Positions 10,385-27,718 of a stretch of DNA of 34,518 nucleotides are shown here, piece by piece. The stretch is from a virus. A program made the position numbers and the translations under genes. Position 1 is the stretch's first letter, and every line of letters starts with the position of its first letter. The notes beneath the pieces were generated by a model. That model did not search any database. It was not told where the DNA came from and saw nothing but the letters and a program-made list of their open reading frames with translations. Location of the stretch: the IMG/VR virus record IMGVR_UViG_3300021406_000030, positions 1 to 34,518 of that record; one strand, 5' to 3'.

Positions 10385-11053
10385 GTAATAGACGACAGAT
10401 CCAGTTCCGCTTGCCGCTGTTGGACGACCACAGGCCGAGAACGATGCGGCATCGGTCCCATTCGGCGTTCCATTGATAATGGCTATTTCCGAGAGCCTTC
10501 CCGCAGAGAAAAACGATGTTCCAGCCCTTGATCCGACGTACAAAACCTGAGAGGTAAACTGTGTCGCCGTGCCTGTAATTGCGACTGTGACCGTTTGCGA
10601 TACCCCATCGACCCATGCAGAGCAGGTTTGAGCACTGCTGTTCCAGTTCAACACATAGCTATGCCATGCGGCGGCTGAAGGACGGGCAAACCAGCAACTT
10701 AGAAAGTTGGTTCCGTCTCGGACTGAAAATTCGAACCCTCCAGTCCCCGAACTATTGGGGTTGACTATAAAGGCCCCGACATTACTGCTGAAGTTTGTAG
10801 AGGTCTCGAACACGATCTCGTCTGTATTTGAAAAGGCATTCCAATAGAGGCGAAATTCCAGAGCGATAGTAGCAGTTGTGAGACCGGTTAGAGATAGCGA
10901 CGATGCCGATTGCAAGAAATCGCTTGTTCCGTTAAACTGACGAGCGTGATTTGTTGTTCCTGAGATGGACACATGGCGATGATTGCCAGTCGATACGACC
11001 TGAGCGCCCGCAATCGAGCAGAGTATCAAAAGTATCGCGCTAATACGTGCCAT
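10286..11053 (-). CDS. Exported LamG/concanavalin-like domain protein, paralogue, 255 aa
   Basis: Residues 1-18 are a Sec signal peptide ([18 protein letters not shown]). The rest aligns along its whole length with the protein at 5338-6111: [49 protein letters not shown], and the shared C-terminal [14 protein letters not shown] block. The middle of the fold has diverged more than the ends, as expected if the centre carries the binding specificity. The start overlaps the end of the upstream fibre gene by 14 nt. It probably works with the adjacent 1391-aa fibre. Confidence 0.8.
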
Positions 11054-12716
11054 TGACCACCCATGTTGATTGCTTGGAAGTTCCGTCTGCTACGAATGTG
11101 AATTTTATGTAATCTCCGTTTGTCAGCAGAATATTCGCGCTCTGCGTGCCTGCAGCGAAGCTTGAAGTGCATGTAACGGCTCCGGTCAGAAGCGCTCCGA
11201 GCGTGTTTCCTGCCGCGTTCATAGTTGAACTTCCGCTGTTATCGGTGAAGCATTGAATTCCGGTAAGCGTGATCGTTGATCCAGTGGTGTTTTTGCAGGT
11301 ACTTTGCAAATAGGTCCCTGTATTAATAGCATTCAGGCCGTCGCCGATTCCCGGCTGACAGGACCACGATCTAGCAGCCAAGCTAATCGTTACCGCTCCA
11401 GTAGCTCCGCTTACTTGAATCGGAGCGGTGGCAGCCAAACTAGAAACTCCGGAACTCGCTACGATTCCAAACTGTGTCCCCATAATTACTGTTGGCGTAC
11501 CTACAATCGTCCCCGTCGTTACCGCCTGTATGTCTAGCAAATCCCCTTGCGCGACTGTGAAATTATGTGTCAGATCATTACATGAGGTAGCCGATGCTCC
11601 GCTTATAGTGCAAGTAAGTGCCGTACCCGCTGCATTTTTTCGCCAAGTATATACAACAGAATTGCCCACACCCGGTGCAGCACTCATTTGAACAGAGAAA
11701 TTCTGGATAGTTGCTGCTGCTGGAGAATCGAGATCAACGTTGGTTTCAGTTGAACTCGTTAGACCGCCGCCACCAATCGGAAAGTATAGCGTTCCGCTCA
11801 GGGTGAGCGACGGACCCGAGTAAACCACAGGAGCAGCGCCCGCTGTCACTCCTGCAATAGCCGCTTGTAATGCAGCCATCGTTGCGAGTTGGGTTGTATT
11901 GGTTCCGGGGGCTGCCGTAGGGGCGGCAGGAATTCCAGTGAAAGTCGGAGATGCTAGCGGAGCCTTAGCGTTCAACTGGGTTTGGATTGAACTCGTCGGA
12001 TCAATGAATGCAAACGTTGCAGGCGTCACTCCGTCCACAGTCTTATTCGTCAGTGTCTGTGTATCGGTCGTGCCGACGATTGTTCCTGCTGGTGCTGCAA
12101 CGCTGCTAGTAAGGGTCGTGGCGCTTCCTGCAATAGGAATTTGGCCGGTCGTAAGGCCAGAGATGCCGCTACCTCCTCCACATCCGGTACAACTTGACAC
12201 CGTAATCGCTGGGGAGCCTGTCAAGCCAGACGCCAAGCCACTTGTGTTGCCTGTGCCGCCATTTGTCGTGCTAAGAGGTAGGGTTAGCGTGGCCTGCTTT
12301 CCGTTCAACTGTGTCTGCACGCTCGATGTGGCATCCATGAAGGCCATCGTTGCCGCACTAACACCATTTGTCGAGGTTGGCGTGATCGCCCCGAGGGTAA
12401 GAGTGATGGCAGGAGTTGTGGTCGCGGTTGCAACTGAACCAGATACTCCGTTGGCCGTTACCACTGAAACGCTGGTAACCGTTCCGCTTCCTCCACCGCC
12501 TCCAAAACACGATGAATCCGCAGGAACCCATTGACTGCTGCTATTCAAACAATACAGAGCGACCGGAGGAGGCTGATTGATCGGGTTCGTTGTCGAAGTC
12601 GATGGCGCACCAACCCAACTTCCTGCCGACATGATGTATGCCGCTGCGGGCGGAGGATTGCTCTGTGCAGCCATAGGCACAGCGAACAACGCGAGAATGA
12701 AGAGAAACTTTTTCAT
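11040..12716 (-). CDS. Exported tail-fibre protein with phage fibre repeats, 558 aa
   Basis: Signal peptide [18 protein letters not shown], behind a GAGGGGAT ribosome site. Residues 75-160 carry Gly-rich fibre repeats ([29 protein letters not shown]). A second set contains [11 protein letters not shown] and [19 protein letters not shown], which matches the phage_fiber_2-type repeat found in many tail fibres. The C-terminal half is a beta-rich domain with paired cysteines. Such repeats are strongly associated with virion fibres, so a phage role is more secure here than for its neighbours, which makes the N-terminal export signal the odd part. It opens the six-gene exported cassette. Confidence 0.85.
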
Positions 12717-14510: not shown

Positions 14511-15605
14511 ATGAGCAACCTGCTTCAACAGGTGGCCCAGCCGCTTCAACAGATTACCACTTTTATTTACGGCCTTGTTGACCCAAGAACTGGACACGTT
14601 CGTTACGTTGGTAAATCTAACAAACCCACTGTTCGTTTGGGTCTTCATCTGATTCCATCTCAATTGAAAGAAACAACCCACAAAACCCGATGGTTGCGAC
14701 AACTTCTCGATGCCGGAGAAAGACCGCGTCTGATAATCCTTGAGAATGTCCCTAAAGTATCTTGGCCGGAATCGGAGAAGAAATGGATTTCTCACTATCG
14801 TAACCTTCCTAATTACCCGCCTCTTACTAACAGTACTGATGGAGGGGAAGGAGTCGAAGGGTACGTCTATTCTGAGGAGGAAAGAAAGAAGCGATCCGCT
14901 TCTCATCTTGGGCTCAAAATGCCTCCCGGTACCGGCAAGAAAATTAGTGAAGCGAATCGAGGTATACCTAAAAGCACTGAAGCGCGCATACATTTTTCTA
15001 GTGGACAAAAAAATCGTTGGCAAAATGCCTCTGATGAAGAGAAACAAAACATGCTTAAAAATCTTCGCAATCCGCAGAGCCACGAAAGAATAGAGCAAAG
15101 CAGGGTGCGCTCTAGAAATGCTCCTAGAATATCTAACACCACTTCTCAATATAGAAACGTCATTAGGGTTAAAGGGACAAAAGAATGGCAAAGACAGTGG
15201 CGCGCTGGATGCATAATTGACGGAAAACATATTTGCATCGGATTTTTTTATACCGAAGAGGAGGCTGCGAGAGCGAGAGATCGCTATGTACTCAAGCACA
15301 TCGGAGAACACGTTATTCTCAATTTTCCTCGTGCGGAATACGAATCCGATCCATGCAAAATAGTCGTCAGTAACGGGAAACACAGTCGCTCTCAAACGAT
15401 ATCCAAAAACAACGCTTCGGGATATAAAGGGGTAAGAAAGAACGGTAAAAATGGATGGACGGCGAGTATTAGTCATATGGGTACCCTCTATCGCCTCGGT
15501 ACACATCGAACTCGCGAGGATGCCGCTAGACGATGGGATCTTAAAGCCATCGAACTCTTCGGTGACTTGGCCGTAACCAATTTCCCTCGTGCGAGCTACG
15601 ATTGA
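14511..15605 (+). CDS. GIY-YIG homing endonuclease with NUMOD3 and two AP2 domains, 364 aa
   Basis: The only well-supported plus-strand gene; ATG 14511 follows CGGAGGT. Residues 18-100 form a GIY-YIG nuclease (IYG at 19-21, RYVG at 31-34, R42, E88 or so as metal ligand). Residues about 121-170 carry a NUMOD3 DNA-binding helix pattern (EERKKRSASHLG, KKISEANRG). AP2/ERF-type domains lie at about 212-273 (QWRAGCIIDGKHICIG, EEEAARARDRYV) and 302-359 (SGYKGVRKNGKNGWTASI, REDAARRWDLKAIELFG). Free-standing endonucleases of this kind cut a rival allele and spread themselves. It separates the adaptor gene from the small basic gene at 15618-15734, in the opposite orientation, as expected for a mobile intruder. 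Confidence 0.92.
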   Translation: MSNLLQQVAQPLQQITTFIYGLVDPRTGHVRYVGKSNKPTVRLGLHLIPSQLKETTHKTRWLRQLLDAGERPRLIILENVPKVSWPESEKKWISHYRNLPNYPPLTNSTDGGEGVEGYVYSEEERKKRSASHLGLKMPPGTGKKISEANRGIPKSTEARIHFSSGQKNRWQNASDEEKQNMLKNLRNPQSHERIEQSRVRSRNAPRISNTTSQYRNVIRVKGTKEWQRQWRAGCIIDGKHICIGFFYTEEEAARARDRYVLKHIGEHVILNFPRAEYESDPCKIVVSNGKHSRSQTISKNNASGYKGVRKNGKNGWTASISHMGTLYRLGTHRTREDAARRWDLKAIELFGDLAVTNFPRASYD

Positions 15606-18556: not shown

Positions 18557-19204
18557 CTAAGCTGTCTTCGTTATTCCGACAACCTTCAGTGATTGTTCTT
18601 TTTGAAGTTTTCTGCGCTGTGCAGTTTGCAAACGGCGCTTTTCCATCCACGCCGGATCTTGAGATTTCTTAACGTGATAGCTGTGATGCCTTTGCTTTTT
18701 ATGTTCAGCCGCTTTTTGATGTTGGCGCTTTACTATCTCCTGCAACCTATCCCAAAGAGCTATGCAAACTGAATACGGTTCCGTATCAAAGGCCGGAGTA
18801 AGTAAATCCGTAACTTCGTCGAGGAAGAATCTAGCAGACGTACTATCAATCTGCGCCTTTCTACGAGCCGTAAGAAACGGATAGATACAACCTAAAAATA
18901 CCCGTGACCGATCCCCACAAAGTCTCCACTGATGAACTTCAAAATTACTGCCCTTCTTACCGACGCCGTTTTTATAAAGCGTTACCTTGCCACCAAACCA
19001 ATCGCGTAAACGATACAAAAGTTCGGGGTCCTTCTGAGAAACGCAAACGGTATACGATTTATTCCCACCACCCTTAGTGGAACAAGTACCTTCTCCTTCA
19101 TAGATACCCGCAGCCCATGCAACATCAATTGCAGTGGGAGGTTTCGTGGCATCAAGCTCTTTGCCACCACGGTTTCCACGAACGATGTAGTAATTTCTCT
19201 TCAT
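18557..19204 (-). CDS. LAGLIDADG-family homing endonuclease, 215 aa
   Basis: Residues 30-40 hold a LAGLIDADG-type motif (WAAGIYEGEGT), with acidic residues E36/E38 in the position of the catalytic acids. It is followed by beta strands (YTVCVSQKDPELLYRLRDWFGG) typical of the fold's DNA-binding saddle. Only one motif is clear, so it should act as a homodimer. The C-terminal 60 residues are Lys/Arg/Gln-rich and probably an extra DNA-binding tail. ATG 19204 follows AGGAGAAA. It is free-standing between scaffold and major capsid genes, the usual hiding place beside a conserved gene. Confidence 0.85.
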   Translation of the reverse strand: MKRNYYIVRGNRGGKELDATKPPTAIDVAWAAGIYEGEGTCSTKGGGNKSYTVCVSQKDPELLYRLRDWFGGKVTLYKNGVGKKGSNFEVHQWRLCGDRSRVFLGCIYPFLTARRKAQIDSTSARFFLDEVTDLLTPAFDTEPYSVCIALWDRLQEIVKRQHQKAAEHKKQRHHSYHVKKSQDPAWMEKRRLQTAQRRKLQKEQSLKVVGITKTA

Positions 19205-21103: not shown

Positions 21104-23206
21104 CTACGACTCTTTTACGACTCCACGAGGTTCACCACCGGCTCCGCCCTTTTGCGACAGGCGAGGTGGCTTTTGCCCTGTTGGTGGACGTCCGCCTTTC
21201 CCTCCTCCACCCCCTTTACCGCCACCCTTACCACCCTGCTGGTCGCCACCTTCGAGGATGGAGGGATCGATGCCTAATTGCTTCAACTTAACGAGAGCTT
21301 TGGCCTTGGCAACAATCGCCATAACCTGCAAATCAACTTCCTCATTGAAGTACTGTTCTTTGAGCGTAGTGCCTTCTGTCTGTCCCCAGTTGCTCACTTC
21401 AAGATTCGACATCACAAAGGACCACGGAAGTGGCGCTCCACCACGCTTCAGTTGAAGCATCAACATCTGCCGCTGCATGGCGGTAACCTTGAGAAGCATA
21501 TTCGGAACGGACGTGAGACGAAGCTGTCTTACCAACCACTTTGCTCTGGTAAGAGAGTCGTACATCGACTTTGTTTCTGGGTAGGTGCCGTTGATTAACT
21601 CGTCCGGCAAATGGCTTGGAACCATGTCCTGCGGGTTGTAGTCGAAAACTTCACGCGCAATGTTATCTGGCCCCACGTACTCGATCAATCGCTGCGTATC
21701 GAACCACTGCGGGATCAGATACTTCATTCTTTCGCCGACACGTTTGTTCCCTTTTTCAATACGCATCGCAATGCCCTTGGCAATTGGTCCGATAGACTCA
21801 ATTTGCTTTGTGGCATCATCACTGTTCATATTGATTTTCAGATTGGCGAGATTACCAACATCGTTCAACCCCAACTGAGCGAGCATACCTTCCTTGAGGT
21901 ATTTGAGAAATGCCCAGTTCTCGCTTCCGACTGTGACTTCTTCCGGCAACAAGGACTGAAAGCTTTTCTTGGGCTCACCGCCTGCTAGGCCGAGACGTAC
22001 ATCCTCTTCGAATATGTCAAAGTGCTCAATCTTCGTACCACCGTTAGTATCGAGGTCATACCCCATCGGCGGGTTAAGCCTTGCGGTAAGGACCTGATCC
22101 ACCTTACGCTCGTGTTTGCGGATCGTTGTCTCGATTGAAGAAACATCTCCGACAAGGGAGCGTCCACCCGGCTCCCACGGTACGTCATCAACGGTGTACT
22201 GAATTACCGGGATGCGCGGGTCCCAATCGAAGGCAGGACCGTCGTACATCGGCCTGTCCAACCCGTTCGATGAAATGATAAGGCGAAGGTTTGGGTACAC
22301 CCGGCAGTCCTCTGCCATAGCCCTACGCATGGAAGGCTGGCCATTTCTCATTCCTCCAAAAATCTCTTGTCCTACGTAAGGAACCTTGTAAAACCACGAG
22401 GTCCCCGGATCTCCCATTGGCAGTTCAAACCCGGTATTGTTGATCCTCATATCCCGGATAAACGTCCAGCGGATCTCGGTGTAGAGGTTGCCAAATGATT
22501 TTCCTTGATCGCTGAGTTCACCATAGCGCCACGACGCCGCAAAGTCCTGCCGCTTTGCCTGAATCAGCGACTTGTAATTGTTCATGCCTACAGTCTGAAG
22601 TTTCCCTTGAAATAATGGAAAACGACCATGCGCTTCGGCAATTGGCATGTAGTCGTAGATCGTGCAACTGTAGCAATCTTGAATATCGTTTGTTCTTGCA
22701 GGTATTTGGGTAGGAACAACATCTAGTACCCCGAGAGCATCGAATGTCATTTCTCGTGGACCGTAACCATATTCTGTCGGCCTGATCTTCGGCCATAAAT
22801 AGCCGATTCCCATCACTGTGGCATATTGCAAGACCTTCAGAATCTGGATTGGAAAATCGCTTTCGAGGTAGACGGCTTTGCTCACCTTAGTGAGCATCTC
22901 GGCGGTCTTCTTGTAGGTTGGAACGTCAGAGCCATATGTGGCAATTTCACGGACTTCGGCCAAAGTTGTGCAAAATTTATTTACCGAATATCGTAATTCA
23001 TTTGTAACTAATAAAGACCTGCTTTTGTCTTTAAAAATCCCATCAAAAACACGCAGATTGGCGGCAAGGTTCTTGTAACTTTTTTGGCCCTCTAAGTAGC
23101 CTTCGCCCTCTTGGATCTGGGACTCAATCCACCCAATCTTGGAGCTTGGCGAGGACTCAAAACTTGGGGCCTGCCAGAGTACCGTTTCTAACGTATCAAG
23201 GAACAC
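21104..23206 (-). CDS. Portal protein, 700 aa
   Basis: The length and helix pattern fit the large P22-like portals that form the DNA-entry dodecamer and seat the terminase. The start is GTG 23206: an in-frame TGA lies four codons upstream, and an ATG four bases upstream leads only to a 4-codon frame. Recognisable segments include an N-terminal wing (LRYSVNKFCTTLAEVREIA), a central domain with PGTSWFYKVPYVGQEIFGG, and a stem/clip region near 420-500. The last 60 residues are a Gly/Lys-rich low-complexity tail (GGKGGGKGGGGGKGG). Residues 421-460 have a gapless half-identical match in the Tat mini-protein at 25489-25758. A dedicated promoter precedes it. Confidence 0.85.
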   Translation of the reverse strand: MFLDTLETVLWQAPSFESSPSSKIGWIESQIQEGEGYLEGQKSYKNLAANLRVFDGIFKDKSRSLLVTNELRYSVNKFCTTLAEVREIATYGSDVPTYKKTAEMLTKVSKAVYLESDFPIQILKVLQYATVMGIGYLWPKIRPTEYGYGPREMTFDALGVLDVVPTQIPARTNDIQDCYSCTIYDYMPIAEAHGRFPLFQGKLQTVGMNNYKSLIQAKRQDFAASWRYGELSDQGKSFGNLYTEIRWTFIRDMRINNTGFELPMGDPGTSWFYKVPYVGQEIFGGMRNGQPSMRRAMAEDCRVYPNLRLIISSNGLDRPMYDGPAFDWDPRIPVIQYTVDDVPWEPGGRSLVGDVSSIETTIRKHERKVDQVLTARLNPPMGYDLDTNGGTKIEHFDIFEEDVRLGLAGGEPKKSFQSLLPEEVTVGSENWAFLKYLKEGMLAQLGLNDVGNLANLKINMNSDDATKQIESIGPIAKGIAMRIEKGNKRVGERMKYLIPQWFDTQRLIEYVGPDNIAREVFDYNPQDMVPSHLPDELINGTYPETKSMYDSLTRAKWLVRQLRLTSVPNMLLKVTAMQRQMLMLQLKRGGAPLPWSFVMSNLEVSNWGQTEGTTLKEQYFNEEVDLQVMAIVAKAKALVKLKQLGIDPSILEGGDQQGGKGGGKGGGGGKGGRPPTGQKPPRLSQKGGAGGEPRGVVKES

Positions 23207-23290: not shown

Positions 23291-23323
23291 TATCAAAAAG
23301 GAAATGGCGAGCCGAAGCTCGCC
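23291..23323 (-). terminator. Intrinsic terminator with UUCG tetraloop at the end of array A
   Basis: On the minus strand, 7-bp arms (23317-23323 and 23306-23312) enclose a TTCG loop closed by C-G, the extra-stable cUUCGg form. The stem is followed by ATTTCCTTTTT. It defines the 3' end of the RHH/RAMP-like transcription unit and lies directly at the last pentamers of array A. Confidence 0.85.
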
Positions 23324-24041
23324 ACTCCCACCATTGCCAAACCTTACCATGCCAAGCCAAGCCCAGCTACAACTCACCTCATCCGAACTCGGCTCACCCG
23401 ACCTTTCCACACCAAACACTACCTTGTCCGTCCATACCGTACCGAAGCGAGCAGTACCGTGCCGCACCGCAGCTAGCCTTTCCATACCGGCCTTGCGGCC
23501 CGTACCTTACCAAGCCATGCCAAGCACTACCAAAGCGATCCCCACACTACCCCGCCGAACCGGGTCTCGCCTAATTACCCAACCAAGCCACGCCCAATCA
23601 CACCGCAACTCGCCATACAACACCCCACCTGAGCGAACCAAACCCTACCGGTCATAATGACCCGGACCTCACCGCACCTAGCCAGACATCACCCGATCCT
23701 GTCTGAGCCTTCCTCACCGCATCTCACCGTGGCGCACCCGGCCTGACCACACCTCGCCAATTCGGGCCTTATCGTGCCACGTCCCAACTTAACTAACCAC
23801 ACCATGACTCGCCCGACCAGACCGTATCCCGACACGCCAGAACGTAGCTCGCCCCGCCCGACCTAACCGGCGTTTCCGCCCGTTCCATACCACACCTAAC
23901 TATGCCAAACCACTCCAAGCCTACAGCGAACCGGACCGAACCAAAACCCGCCAAACCAAGGACTGCCGTTTGCCACACCCTACCATGCCTAACCTTAGCA
24001 GACCTCACCATGCCACACCTTGACAAGACTTGGCGTGGCAC
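23306..24041 (-). repeat. Array A: ~736-nt degenerate pentamer array (NNGGY on minus strand)
   Basis: This is the only stretch over 300 bases without a gene. On the plus strand it reads as RCCNN units such as ACCTT ACCAT GCCAA; on the minus strand as NNGGY. The first block (23306-23490) holds 37 units in one phase, and the block 23666-23870 holds 41 units in one phase with C at position 3 in 40, a purine at position 1 in 39 and C at position 2 in 26. Other blocks are offset by a few bases, so at least five phase slips occur. Adjacent units are nearly always different, which rules out a simple microsatellite. It runs from 2 nt after the RAMP-like gene's stop to the UUCG terminator, so it is probably the 3' part of that transcript. 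Confidence 0.9.
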
Positions 24042-24042
24042 G

Positions 24043-24669
24043 TCAACGCAATTCAACAACTGAAAACTTCGTGACCTGAAATCTTCCAAATGATGGCCGG
24101 AAATCTCCAACGCCGACAATGCGACCCGCATACGACAATGTTTCATGCAGTAGGCGATGATCTATGTATTCCGGAAGAAGAACTTGCAGGCTGACACTGC
24201 ACTTCCAACCAGTCAACATCGCTGGACGCACGCGCGTAATTCCACTTCGCTGAATCACGACACGACGACGATCAAGGTAATCTGGTTCCTTTGCACCGAG
24301 AGAGCAAAGCTCTCCGATAGTGGCAATACCAGCCTTGAATAGATCCATCGCAGACTTGCGCGGCGAACGTGGATCTTGTTTGAACTTCGCGGCATGGATC
24401 ACTGACTGCCGAAAATATTCGGATGGAATAGCTACACGGCCCTTCTCATCACGGTACATATAACTTTCAATGTTGTCGGTTTTCTTTGCAGCAGATCCCT
24501 TCTTCGAGTTGGCTTTCTCTTCAATCGCATCGCACGACCAGCGATGAAATAAAACTGGCGCTGTGCCCTCGATGCTGCACTCGATCATGTAAGGAGATTG
24601 AATCTCAACGTCCACTTTTGCATCATTGGACGCATTGGAAAGAGCAGTTACAACTGACTTCGTAGCCAT
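24043..24669 (-). CDS. RAMP/Cas7-like phage protein of unknown function, 208 aa
   Basis: Start chosen at ATG 24669, with GAGGTGAGG just upstream; ATG 24699 lies inside array B. N-terminal strand IECSIEGTAPVLFHRW (30-44), a helix IPSEYFRQSVIHAA (81-94), a basic strand RRRVVIQRSGITRVRP (134-149) and a C-terminal glycine loop GRIVGVGDFRPSFGRF (182-197). The order strand, IP-x4-R helix, and a G-rich G-x-G-D-x-R-x3-G-R-F end resembles RAMP/Cas7-type RNA-binding folds. It also resembles a group of uncharacterised phage proteins with a TAP-V/L-L-F/M-H motif (recollection, not searched). No catalytic residues are evident. Flanked on both sides by pentamer arrays and following an RHH gene, it is the likely binding partner of the array. 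Confidence 0.75.
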   Translation of the reverse strand: MATKSVVTALSNASNDAKVDVEIQSPYMIECSIEGTAPVLFHRWSCDAIEEKANSKKGSAAKKTDNIESYMYRDEKGRVAIPSEYFRQSVIHAAKFKQDPRSPRKSAMDLFKAGIATIGELCSLGAKEPDYLDRRRVVIQRSGITRVRPAMLTGWKCSVSLQVLLPEYIDHRLLHETLSYAGRIVGVGDFRPSFGRFQVTKFSVVELR

Positions 24670-24694: not shown

Positions 24695-24779
24695 GCCATA
24701 CCTCACCACACCGTGGATTGCCTCACCTCGGCCCACCAGAACTCACCATGCCTTGCCAGTCCATGACACGGCCTGCCGA
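24695..24779 (-). repeat. Array B: 17 pentamers between RHH and RAMP-like genes
   Basis: Seventeen consecutive units in one phase, position 3 being C (plus strand) in 16. It fills the gap between the RHH stop (24781) and the RAMP-like gene almost exactly, in the same orientation as array A. In the transcript it is therefore the leader of the RAMP-like gene. Confidence 0.88.
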
Positions 24780-24780
24780 G

Positions 24781-24930
24781 TTATTTTGGAAGTTTTTGCC
24801 TTTGGGCTAATTCCTGAACAGCACGTTCAATCACGCCTGTCTTAGAAAGTCCCAACAACTCGGAGAGAGCGACGATCCATTTTAGAGTTCGCTCTGTCAT
24901 CCGATATGCAACAGAAACTCTATTTGCCAT
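24781..24930 (-). CDS. Ribbon-helix-helix (CopG/MetJ-type) regulator, 49 aa
   Basis: ATG 24930 to TAA 24781. The sequence has the RHH layout: N-terminal beta strand NRVSVAYRM, first helix TERTLKWIVALSELL, turn GLSK, second helix TGVIERAVQELAQRQ. RHH dimers bind DNA with the paired strands and often repress their own operon. A perfect inverted repeat lies in the promoter just upstream, so autoregulation is likely. The gene begins only about 6 nt after the predicted -10 box and has no ribosome site, suggesting a leaderless message. It is first in the unit RHH, array B, RAMP-like gene, array A. Confidence 0.85.
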   Translation of the reverse strand: MANRVSVAYRMTERTLKWIVALSELLGLSKTGVIERAVQELAQRQKLPK

Positions 24931-25103: not shown

Positions 25104-25496
25104 TCAATGCCCTTGTTCATAACCTTCGCTGTGTAAATATTCTTCCCTGACTGTCTTCGACTTGTCATTGTCGAAGTGCTTGTCAAGGAAATATCTCATC
25201 GCATCACGATTGTAGGCATTTCTTGCGTTTGCCATTAAGTGTCTAATGTGTGATCGCAGTTCCGACCGCCACTGACCTTCAATCAGATTACGCTCTTCGT
25301 CCTTGATGCTCTCTTTAAAGGCATTGTATTTGCGGAGCCGATCCGACCAAACTTCGGCGTCATGAGCCGAAGCACAAATAATTTTCTCAAAACCGGGAGG
25401 TGCAGGAAACCTCTCTGGGAGACCCATACGGATCTCTCCCGATGTGCCGTTGTAGTAGTAGCAGATTTTTTTGCTTAATTGAGCGTTGTTAAGCAT
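25104..25496 (-). CDS. Hypothetical phage protein, 130 aa
   Basis: Charged, mostly helical protein with a short beta start (KICYYYNGTSGEIRMGLP), a central PPGFEKIICASAHDAEVWSDRLR segment and long helices (RSELRSHIRHLMANARNAYNRDAMRYFLDKHF). The start overlaps the Tat mini-protein gene by 8 nt, so it belongs to the same operon. It is the last gene before the array cassette. No family function is known to me. Confidence 0.65.
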   Translation of the reverse strand: MLNNAQLSKKICYYYNGTSGEIRMGLPERFPAPPGFEKIICASAHDAEVWSDRLRKYNAFKESIKDEERNLIEGQWRSELRSHIRHLMANARNAYNRDAMRYFLDKHFDNDKSKTVREEYLHSEGYEQGH

Positions 25497-27127: not shown

Positions 27128-27580
27128 TTACTCGCCAACTGCGCCGACACCCGCTAGCGCTTTCCGGGCGTACTTCCGACGTCCTCTTGTTGAGGTATCG
27201 GCCTCCTCGGTTGGCTCTGCTTCCTCGGTGACCTCTTCATTGTTCGCTTTTATCTGTGCCCTAACAGCGTCCAAGTTTTCTTCACGGGGGATGACGATTG
27301 TTTCGATGATCTCAGACTTTTCAACCTGTTCTGGAGGAAGAGAATCCAATGATCTCTTTACTTCTGACGGCAAGGTGATCGGGACTTCCATCTCAATATG
27401 AACTGTTCGAACGGCAAAGCAGTCCAGTTCAATTTTTACCTTCCCTTGAAATCCGCCACTGTATCCGTCTTCTTTCCTAAGACTGCAATCCCGACGCAGA
27501 AATTTGCGCACTTCACCCACAACATACTCGATAGGTTCCCATCCGCTCAACGGATCAGTGAAATTCTTGACATCTGGCAT
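27128..27580 (-). CDS. Hypothetical protein, 150 aa
   Basis: ATG 27580 follows AAAGGAGAC. A short helix (EPIEYVVGEVRKFLRR) is followed by beta strands (QGKVKIELDCFAVRTVHIEMEVPI, split) and a long acidic, disordered region (EEVTEEAEPTEEADTS) ending in a basic tail (RGRRKYARKAL). Array D lies in its leader. No family recognised. Confidence 0.6.
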   Translation of the reverse strand: MPDVKNFTDPLSGWEPIEYVVGEVRKFLRRDCSLRKEDGYSGGFQGKVKIELDCFAVRTVHIEMEVPITLPSEVKRSLDSLPPEQVEKSEIIETIVIPREENLDAVRAQIKANNEEVTEEAEPTEEADTSTRGRRKYARKALAGVGAVGE

Positions 27581-27628: not shown

Positions 27629-27718
27629 ACCTCGCCAAACCTTACCGCACCACACCGAACCTGACCAAGCTCTACCCGACCGCACCACGCCGAACCGGGC
27701 CTAACCTCACCTTACATT
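27629..27718 (-). repeat. Array D: 18 pentamers in a gene leader
   Basis: Eighteen units in one phase (plus strand ACCTC GCCAA ACCTT and so on), position 3 being C in 16. It is in the same orientation as arrays A and B but 2.6 kb from the cassette, between the mini-gene at 27740 and the start at 27580. No terminator follows it. Confidence 0.88.

Follow-up and report, generated by a model that had tools for sequence, protein, structure and literature searches.

The window, by which we mean the whole stretch of 34,518 nucleotides analysed here (IMG/VR record IMGVR_UViG_3300021406_000030), very probably carries the Viral Interference Programmable Repeat (VIPR) system of a phage from soil or water, in which a guide-bearing Vipr protein would silence a rival's copy of a gene and leave on the phage's own copy, which the guide matches less well. 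The 2026 description of VIPR concerns phages of Escherichia and Pseudomonas (PMC13142463), and a literature search for it found nothing beyond that preprint. The kind of system is already known; what is new, as far as the main text of the preprint and our literature search go, is a rule of placement. The guides lie no more than about 2 kb from the phage's own homologue of the gene that they target in rivals, and this includes single guides located far from vipr. The features of the window are the following.

21104-23206, minus strand: putative portal gene, adjoining array A (Pfam P22_portal, E 4.1e-5, just below the cut-off)
23300-23329, minus strand: terminator-like hairpin closing array A, with a UUCG loop and a T run (-22.6 kcal/mol)
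23311-24019, minus strand: array A, downstream of vipr, seven GGY/NN segments found by segmentation (24019-23972, 23957-23925, 23921-23880, 23868-23662, 23649-23577, 23571-23500 and 23488-23311)
23334-23413, minus strand: units 15-30 of the last array A guide
24043-24669, minus strand: vipr, encoding a protein of 208 aa with a predicted RAMP/Cas7 fold (homology, fold prediction)
24695-24777, minus strand: array B, 17 units, between vap and vipr (segmentation)
24781-24930, minus strand: candidate vap (vipr-accessory) gene, 49 aa
24999-25061, plus strand (opposite to the others): guide C, 13 units, followed by a hairpin and TATTTT
25104-25496, minus strand: resident gene adjoining guide C, with its own guide C site at 25388-25353
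27128-27580, minus strand: resident gene adjoining guide D
27629-27716, minus strand: guide D, with 18 units, at roughly 3 kb from vipr

The vipr start at 24669 has a GAGGTGAGG motif immediately 5' of it and similarity to most relatives starts nearby; an upstream in-frame ATG at 24699, where the ORF listing starts, is also present. The protein has no family in Pfam, PADLOC or NCBIfam, and it matches PHROG 4652 (E 1.4e-18), which is listed without a function. A search of solved structures with the single sequence gave one significant match, the 'SUSP1 Vipr protein' (36pp_D, E 6.4e-5), and a profile of 40 relatives matched this protein over positions 30-200 (E 8.4e-12). SUSP1 Vipr has been published as a RAMP with guide RNAs composed of pentanucleotide repeats of the form YNNGG (PMC13142463). 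The first-pass annotation of this DNA had proposed a Cas7 relative that counts 5 nt, and the homology to SUSP1 Vipr agrees with that proposal.

An AlphaFold model of the protein (40 sequences) has a pLDDT of 85 and a pTM of 0.77. All 50 of the Foldseek matches listed for this model are Cas7-family chains, the best being from a type VII complex (E 4.8e-7), and VIA-align gave a Z of 12.4 against type VII chain 8yhe_F (rmsd 3.7, 162 residues) and of 12.1 against Csm chain 6xn3_F (163 residues). The overall fold predicted for Vipr is that of RAMP/Cas7 proteins, closest to type VII Cas7 and Csm3, which upholds the relationship suggested by the first-pass annotation. The motifs on which it relied are real and conserved: H42, W44, P82, R87, G186, D189, R191, P192, G195 and R196 are invariant in 40 aligned relatives, and the GVGDFRP loop is kept in the same alignment. 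Its reading needs a single correction, namely that the system had already been named and its mechanism partly solved. Vipr relatives occur in seven unrelated bacterial bins and point to no one host.

The arrays were found by hidden-Markov segmentation into GGY/NN units. Between 23300 and 24040, CC...CC at a spacing of 5 occurs 60 times, compared with a mean of 22.5 in 1000 dinucleotide shuffles (sd 4.2, maximum 38), and so the 5-nt arrays noticed earlier are real. A perfect GGY is present in 110 of the 166 units of the window; the position profile of these units is G (0.92), G (0.78), C or T (0.93), and then two mixed positions. GNRA-type hairpins separate several segments of array A, and an Rfam scan of the window gave no match to hammerhead or any other described RNA family at gathering scores. 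Arrays of this type are present in all 80 of the vipr loci fetched (the best 80 of 141), nearly all of them beside vipr and on its strand, versus nine segments in shuffled DNA of the same loci. In VIPR the repeats are followed by a structured 3' tail; here hairpins follow several segments, and 333 array ends fold only slightly better than shuffles (mean -10.6 versus -9.1). From their sequence and position, the pentanucleotide arrays around vipr look like guides of Vipr.

Some arrays in the relatives are very long and far above the 9-16 repeats per guide reported in the preprint. For example, as many as 37 perfect GGY units follow one another in L066 (3119-3622), and L064 (4538-7454) has segments of up to 115 units; L322 (7136-7628) and L264 (7596-7993) are of the same kind. 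Orphan guide arrays are located tens of kb from vipr in G085 (L352-L358; 70095-70171 and 137130-137197) and in G064 (53165, 65420, 71146 and 72892-73369). G081 has a divergent vipr-like ORF of 256 aa (34075-34842, plus strand) with perfect arrays on its flanks and belongs to the same portal group; this is perhaps another VIPR type. At the place of guide D, a complete VIPR locus with another vipr (54%) is present in G041 (10930-11678), and most NN units are common to both guides. Guide D may be a left-over of a second VIPR.

Binding of the guide RNA (vrRNA), recognition of DNA with one base skipped between pairs, and repression are established for SUSP1 (PMC13142463). We decoded every 12-unit stretch of our arrays with zero to three skipped bases and counted matches of at least 20 of 24 letters. 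The first target set was 2.14 Mb of unique DNA, made up of the vipr loci and the loci of capsid, portal and terminase relatives, and the second consisted of new loci from different queries. In both sets we masked stretches that recurred from the same contigs before any matches were counted, and L081, which is a piece of the window, was left out of the target scans. A skip of one gave 173 matches in the first set versus 39, 26 and 41 for skips of 0, 2 and 3, and 35 when the units were shuffled. The second set gave 298 versus 25, 34 and 35, and 38 with shuffled units. In 16 of the 19 arrays whose target could be assigned a reading frame, the skipped base falls on the wobble position (position 3) of the codon (p 7e-6). 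The published 1-nt-skip rule fits this clade. An 8-unit target scan was set aside as too noisy to separate the skip rules well (1, 6, 6 and 0 matches of 16/16 for skips 0-3), and the skip-3 matches in the whole-contig scan are array-against-array copies and were excluded.

The computed targets are located in related phages, where most of them are structural genes or other vipr genes. For guide D there is a match of 24/24 letters in G045, a 134-kb relative with 93%, 71% and 77% identity in capsid, portal and terminase, respectively, in which no vipr match and no array were found. An exact search of 2.9 million viral contigs with the 20-letter core of guide D gave this single match, where about 0.1 would be expected by chance if contigs average 20-30 kb, which is an assumed length. 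Of the 69 homologues of the ORF at 25104-25496 that were examined, eight among the matches listed agree with guide C in 22 of 24 letters. In L001, whose Vipr is the closest to that of the window (84%), the start of the portal gene agrees with the last array A guide in 28 of 32 letters, and an L001 guide matches the portal gene of the window at bases 22597-22569 (20 of 20 letters, 10 units). The window phage and L001 are thus predicted, from these matches, to aim guides at each other's portal gene. Array B and all array A segments except the last had no target at threshold in the DNA searched, where distant targets are under-sampled because the target sets are DNA around vipr, portal, capsid and terminase. 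The orphan G085:137130 reaches 19 of 24 letters at best, which is below threshold; its best match, a lead only, is the G079 homologue of the adjoining HTH gene. Vipr genes of other phages are targets of arrays in L298 (7741-7983 and 8666-8978) and L336 (8633-8705), and also of guides in L066, L040, L304 and L076, mostly antisense and with the wobble base skipped.

As to the placement of the guides, 71 of the 104 skip-1 match diagonals of the first set come from loci that themselves contain a homologue of the target gene, and for 70 this homologue is not more than 1500 nt from the guide, versus 1/28, 0/21 and 0/29 for skips of 0, 2 and 3. For the second set, the target homologue is near the guide in 112 of 140 cases versus 1/23, 0/25 and 0/23; many of the targets are vipr itself, so the nearness is trivial for these. 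Counted per array over both sets, 18 of 60 matching arrays map within 1500 nt versus 2 of 121 for the other skips (p 3.5e-8), and 11 of 60 versus 1 of 121 when vipr targets are excluded (p 2.4e-5). The second set alone without vipr targets (4/26 versus 0/56 arrays, p about 0.009, computed by hand) is the cleaner test, though small, because the hypothesis arose from the window guides of the first set. Matches of a guide to its own genome were counted as matches and not as neighbours.

To lessen sampling bias, we added complete or almost complete contigs from 17 relatives. In whole contigs the distance to the resident homologue is 190-810 nt for guides C, D and the last of array A in the window, for G085:8746, G085:70095 and G001, and for the G041/G042 pair, which is one shared locus. 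The orphan G085:70095 lies 62 kb away from its vipr and precedes an HNH gene by about 440 nt; homologues of that gene match it with 24 of 24 letters in two genomes. The exceptions are G006, which matches itself, and one G064 guide whose target homologue is 36 kb away; for one G081 guide there is no homologue.

For five guides, the resident copy matches less well than the best rival copy. The own site scores 14/24 versus 24/24 for guide D, although the protein of the rival has just 43% identity, 18/32 versus 28/32 for the last array A guide, 19/24 versus 22/24 for guide C, 15/20 versus 20/20 for guide 2 of L001 and 20/24 versus 24/24 for G085:70095, but self is one sequence among many, so that scores below the best rival alone prove little. 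A ranking against all homologues puts the own sites of two guides near the bottom, and these guides are not independent because most of their units are shared: 20 of 23 homologues score above the own site of guide D, and 23 of 26 above that of the L082 guide. The own site of guide C is near the median of its homologues, the best match of L001 guide 1 is its own portal gene (20/24), and self matches are also present in G006 (20/24, 176 nt from its array), L025 and L337. By these scores, self-sparing is clear for guide D and the L082 array and is not general; the ranking found no self-avoidance beyond these two.

We envisage the following for the window phage. Vipr subunits would coat the array RNA with one subunit per GGYNN unit, that is, every 5 nt, and leave the two NN bases free. 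By analogy with SUSP1, these pairs would recognise double-stranded DNA, skipping one base from each pair to the next, and binding would silence the gene; a small accessory protein, for which the ORF at 24781-24930 is a candidate, would take part. Co-infecting relatives would have their structural genes or vipr silenced. As the rival's copy would be shut off and the phage's own, less well matched copy would stay on, guide and allele would be kept together. A broader form of this idea is RNA-guided marker exclusion, where each guide, orphans included, is linked to an escaping resident allele and silences rival alleles of the same gene, and where the two spread as a pair, much as a homing endonuclease does with its protected site, but without DNA cutting. 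We consider this a serious possibility and stop short of calling it probable.

Other explanations start from the same pattern. New guides might simply be copied from nearby sequence, so that the resemblance is by descent, with no selection that links a guide to an immune allele. This would account for the neighbour pattern and for the self-like guides; however, a copied guide should match its own gene best, and guide D and its L082 counterpart rank their own gene near the bottom. Later recombination with a rival's allele could account for these low ranks, and yet we think local origin unlikely. Less likely again is autoregulation, in which the guides time the expression of the phage's own neighbouring structural genes and the matches to relatives only reflect gene conservation. 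The matched genes do adjoin the guides, and some own sites match well (L001 guide 1, guide C and G006), whereas for guide D, the last array A guide, L001 guide 2 and G085:70095 the match is better in other phages than in the phage's own gene.

The fold of Vipr would also be compatible with a phage-borne remnant of a Class 1 CRISPR system, for which we see next to no chance. Its relative by sequence is Vipr, the guides are 5-nt units rather than spacers between repeats, and a PADLOC scan of the vipr ORF (E up to 10) and 20 other ORFs of the window (E up to 0.01) gave no cas-like match in these 21 ORFs. We take the PADLOC library to contain cas models. The CRISPR remnant was rejected on these grounds, and the statement of the first-pass annotation that the gene lies outside any CRISPR locus, with no cas genes in the window, holds, as far as cas genes go, for the ORFs scanned. 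The sole PADLOC match was a weak one of PD-T4-3 to a GIY-YIG-like ORF.

The candidate vap gene looks ribbon-helix-helix-like by eye and has no Pfam family at cut-off (PF07704, E 0.023, is below it). Homologues are directly upstream of vipr in four distinct relatives (L001, L002, L003 and L082/G041/G042). Elsewhere in the window are two free-standing homing-endonuclease-like genes, both between structural genes and both just under the Pfam cut-off: a GIY-YIG-like gene (14511-15605, plus strand; PF01541, E 2.4e-4) and a LAGLIDADG-like gene (18557-19204, minus strand; PF14528, E 4.9e-4). This genome may have two kinds of exclusion device, the homing-endonuclease-like genes and VIPR.

The closest known system is the VIPR of Escherichia phage SUSP1 (PDB 36pp). 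Both have a homologous Vipr, GGY/NN arrays beside vipr (here read from DNA), a 1-nt-skip code with wobble-phased targets (here computed) and a small gene for a putative DNA-binding accessory protein (here a candidate). According to the main text of the preprint, satellites are the main targets of the SUSP1-clade vrRNAs, and a vrRNA has 9-16 repeats (PMC13142463), whereas the targets here are related phages' homologues of the genes that adjoin the guides, single guides also lie far from vipr, and the relatives have up to 37 perfect GGY units in a row. The Cas7/Csm3 backbone of type III and VII CRISPR systems shares the predicted fold (Z about 12 over about 162 residues), but here there are no cas genes in the 21 ORFs, the guide is a 5-nt repeat and not a spacer, and no adaptation machinery was seen. 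A parallel for the placement, by analogy only, is phage T4 SegF, a free-standing homing endonuclease that, according to the review PMC2988022, is encoded at soc/56, cuts gene 56 in T2 and brings about marker exclusion. As in that account of SegF-like enzymes, a selfish determinant would be encoded beside the gene that it attacks in related phages; unlike them, the determinant here would be RNA-guided with no nuclease known, and exclusion would come from silencing rather than from cleavage and gene conversion.

In conclusion, sequence data from this clade independently bear out the 1-nt-skip code as a predictor of real targets in many environmental phages. The placement rule would explain how self-silencing is avoided, why guides are retained at a distance from vipr and how recombination moves guide and allele as one. 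It would also allow the targets of guides that are still unassigned to be predicted from their neighbours.
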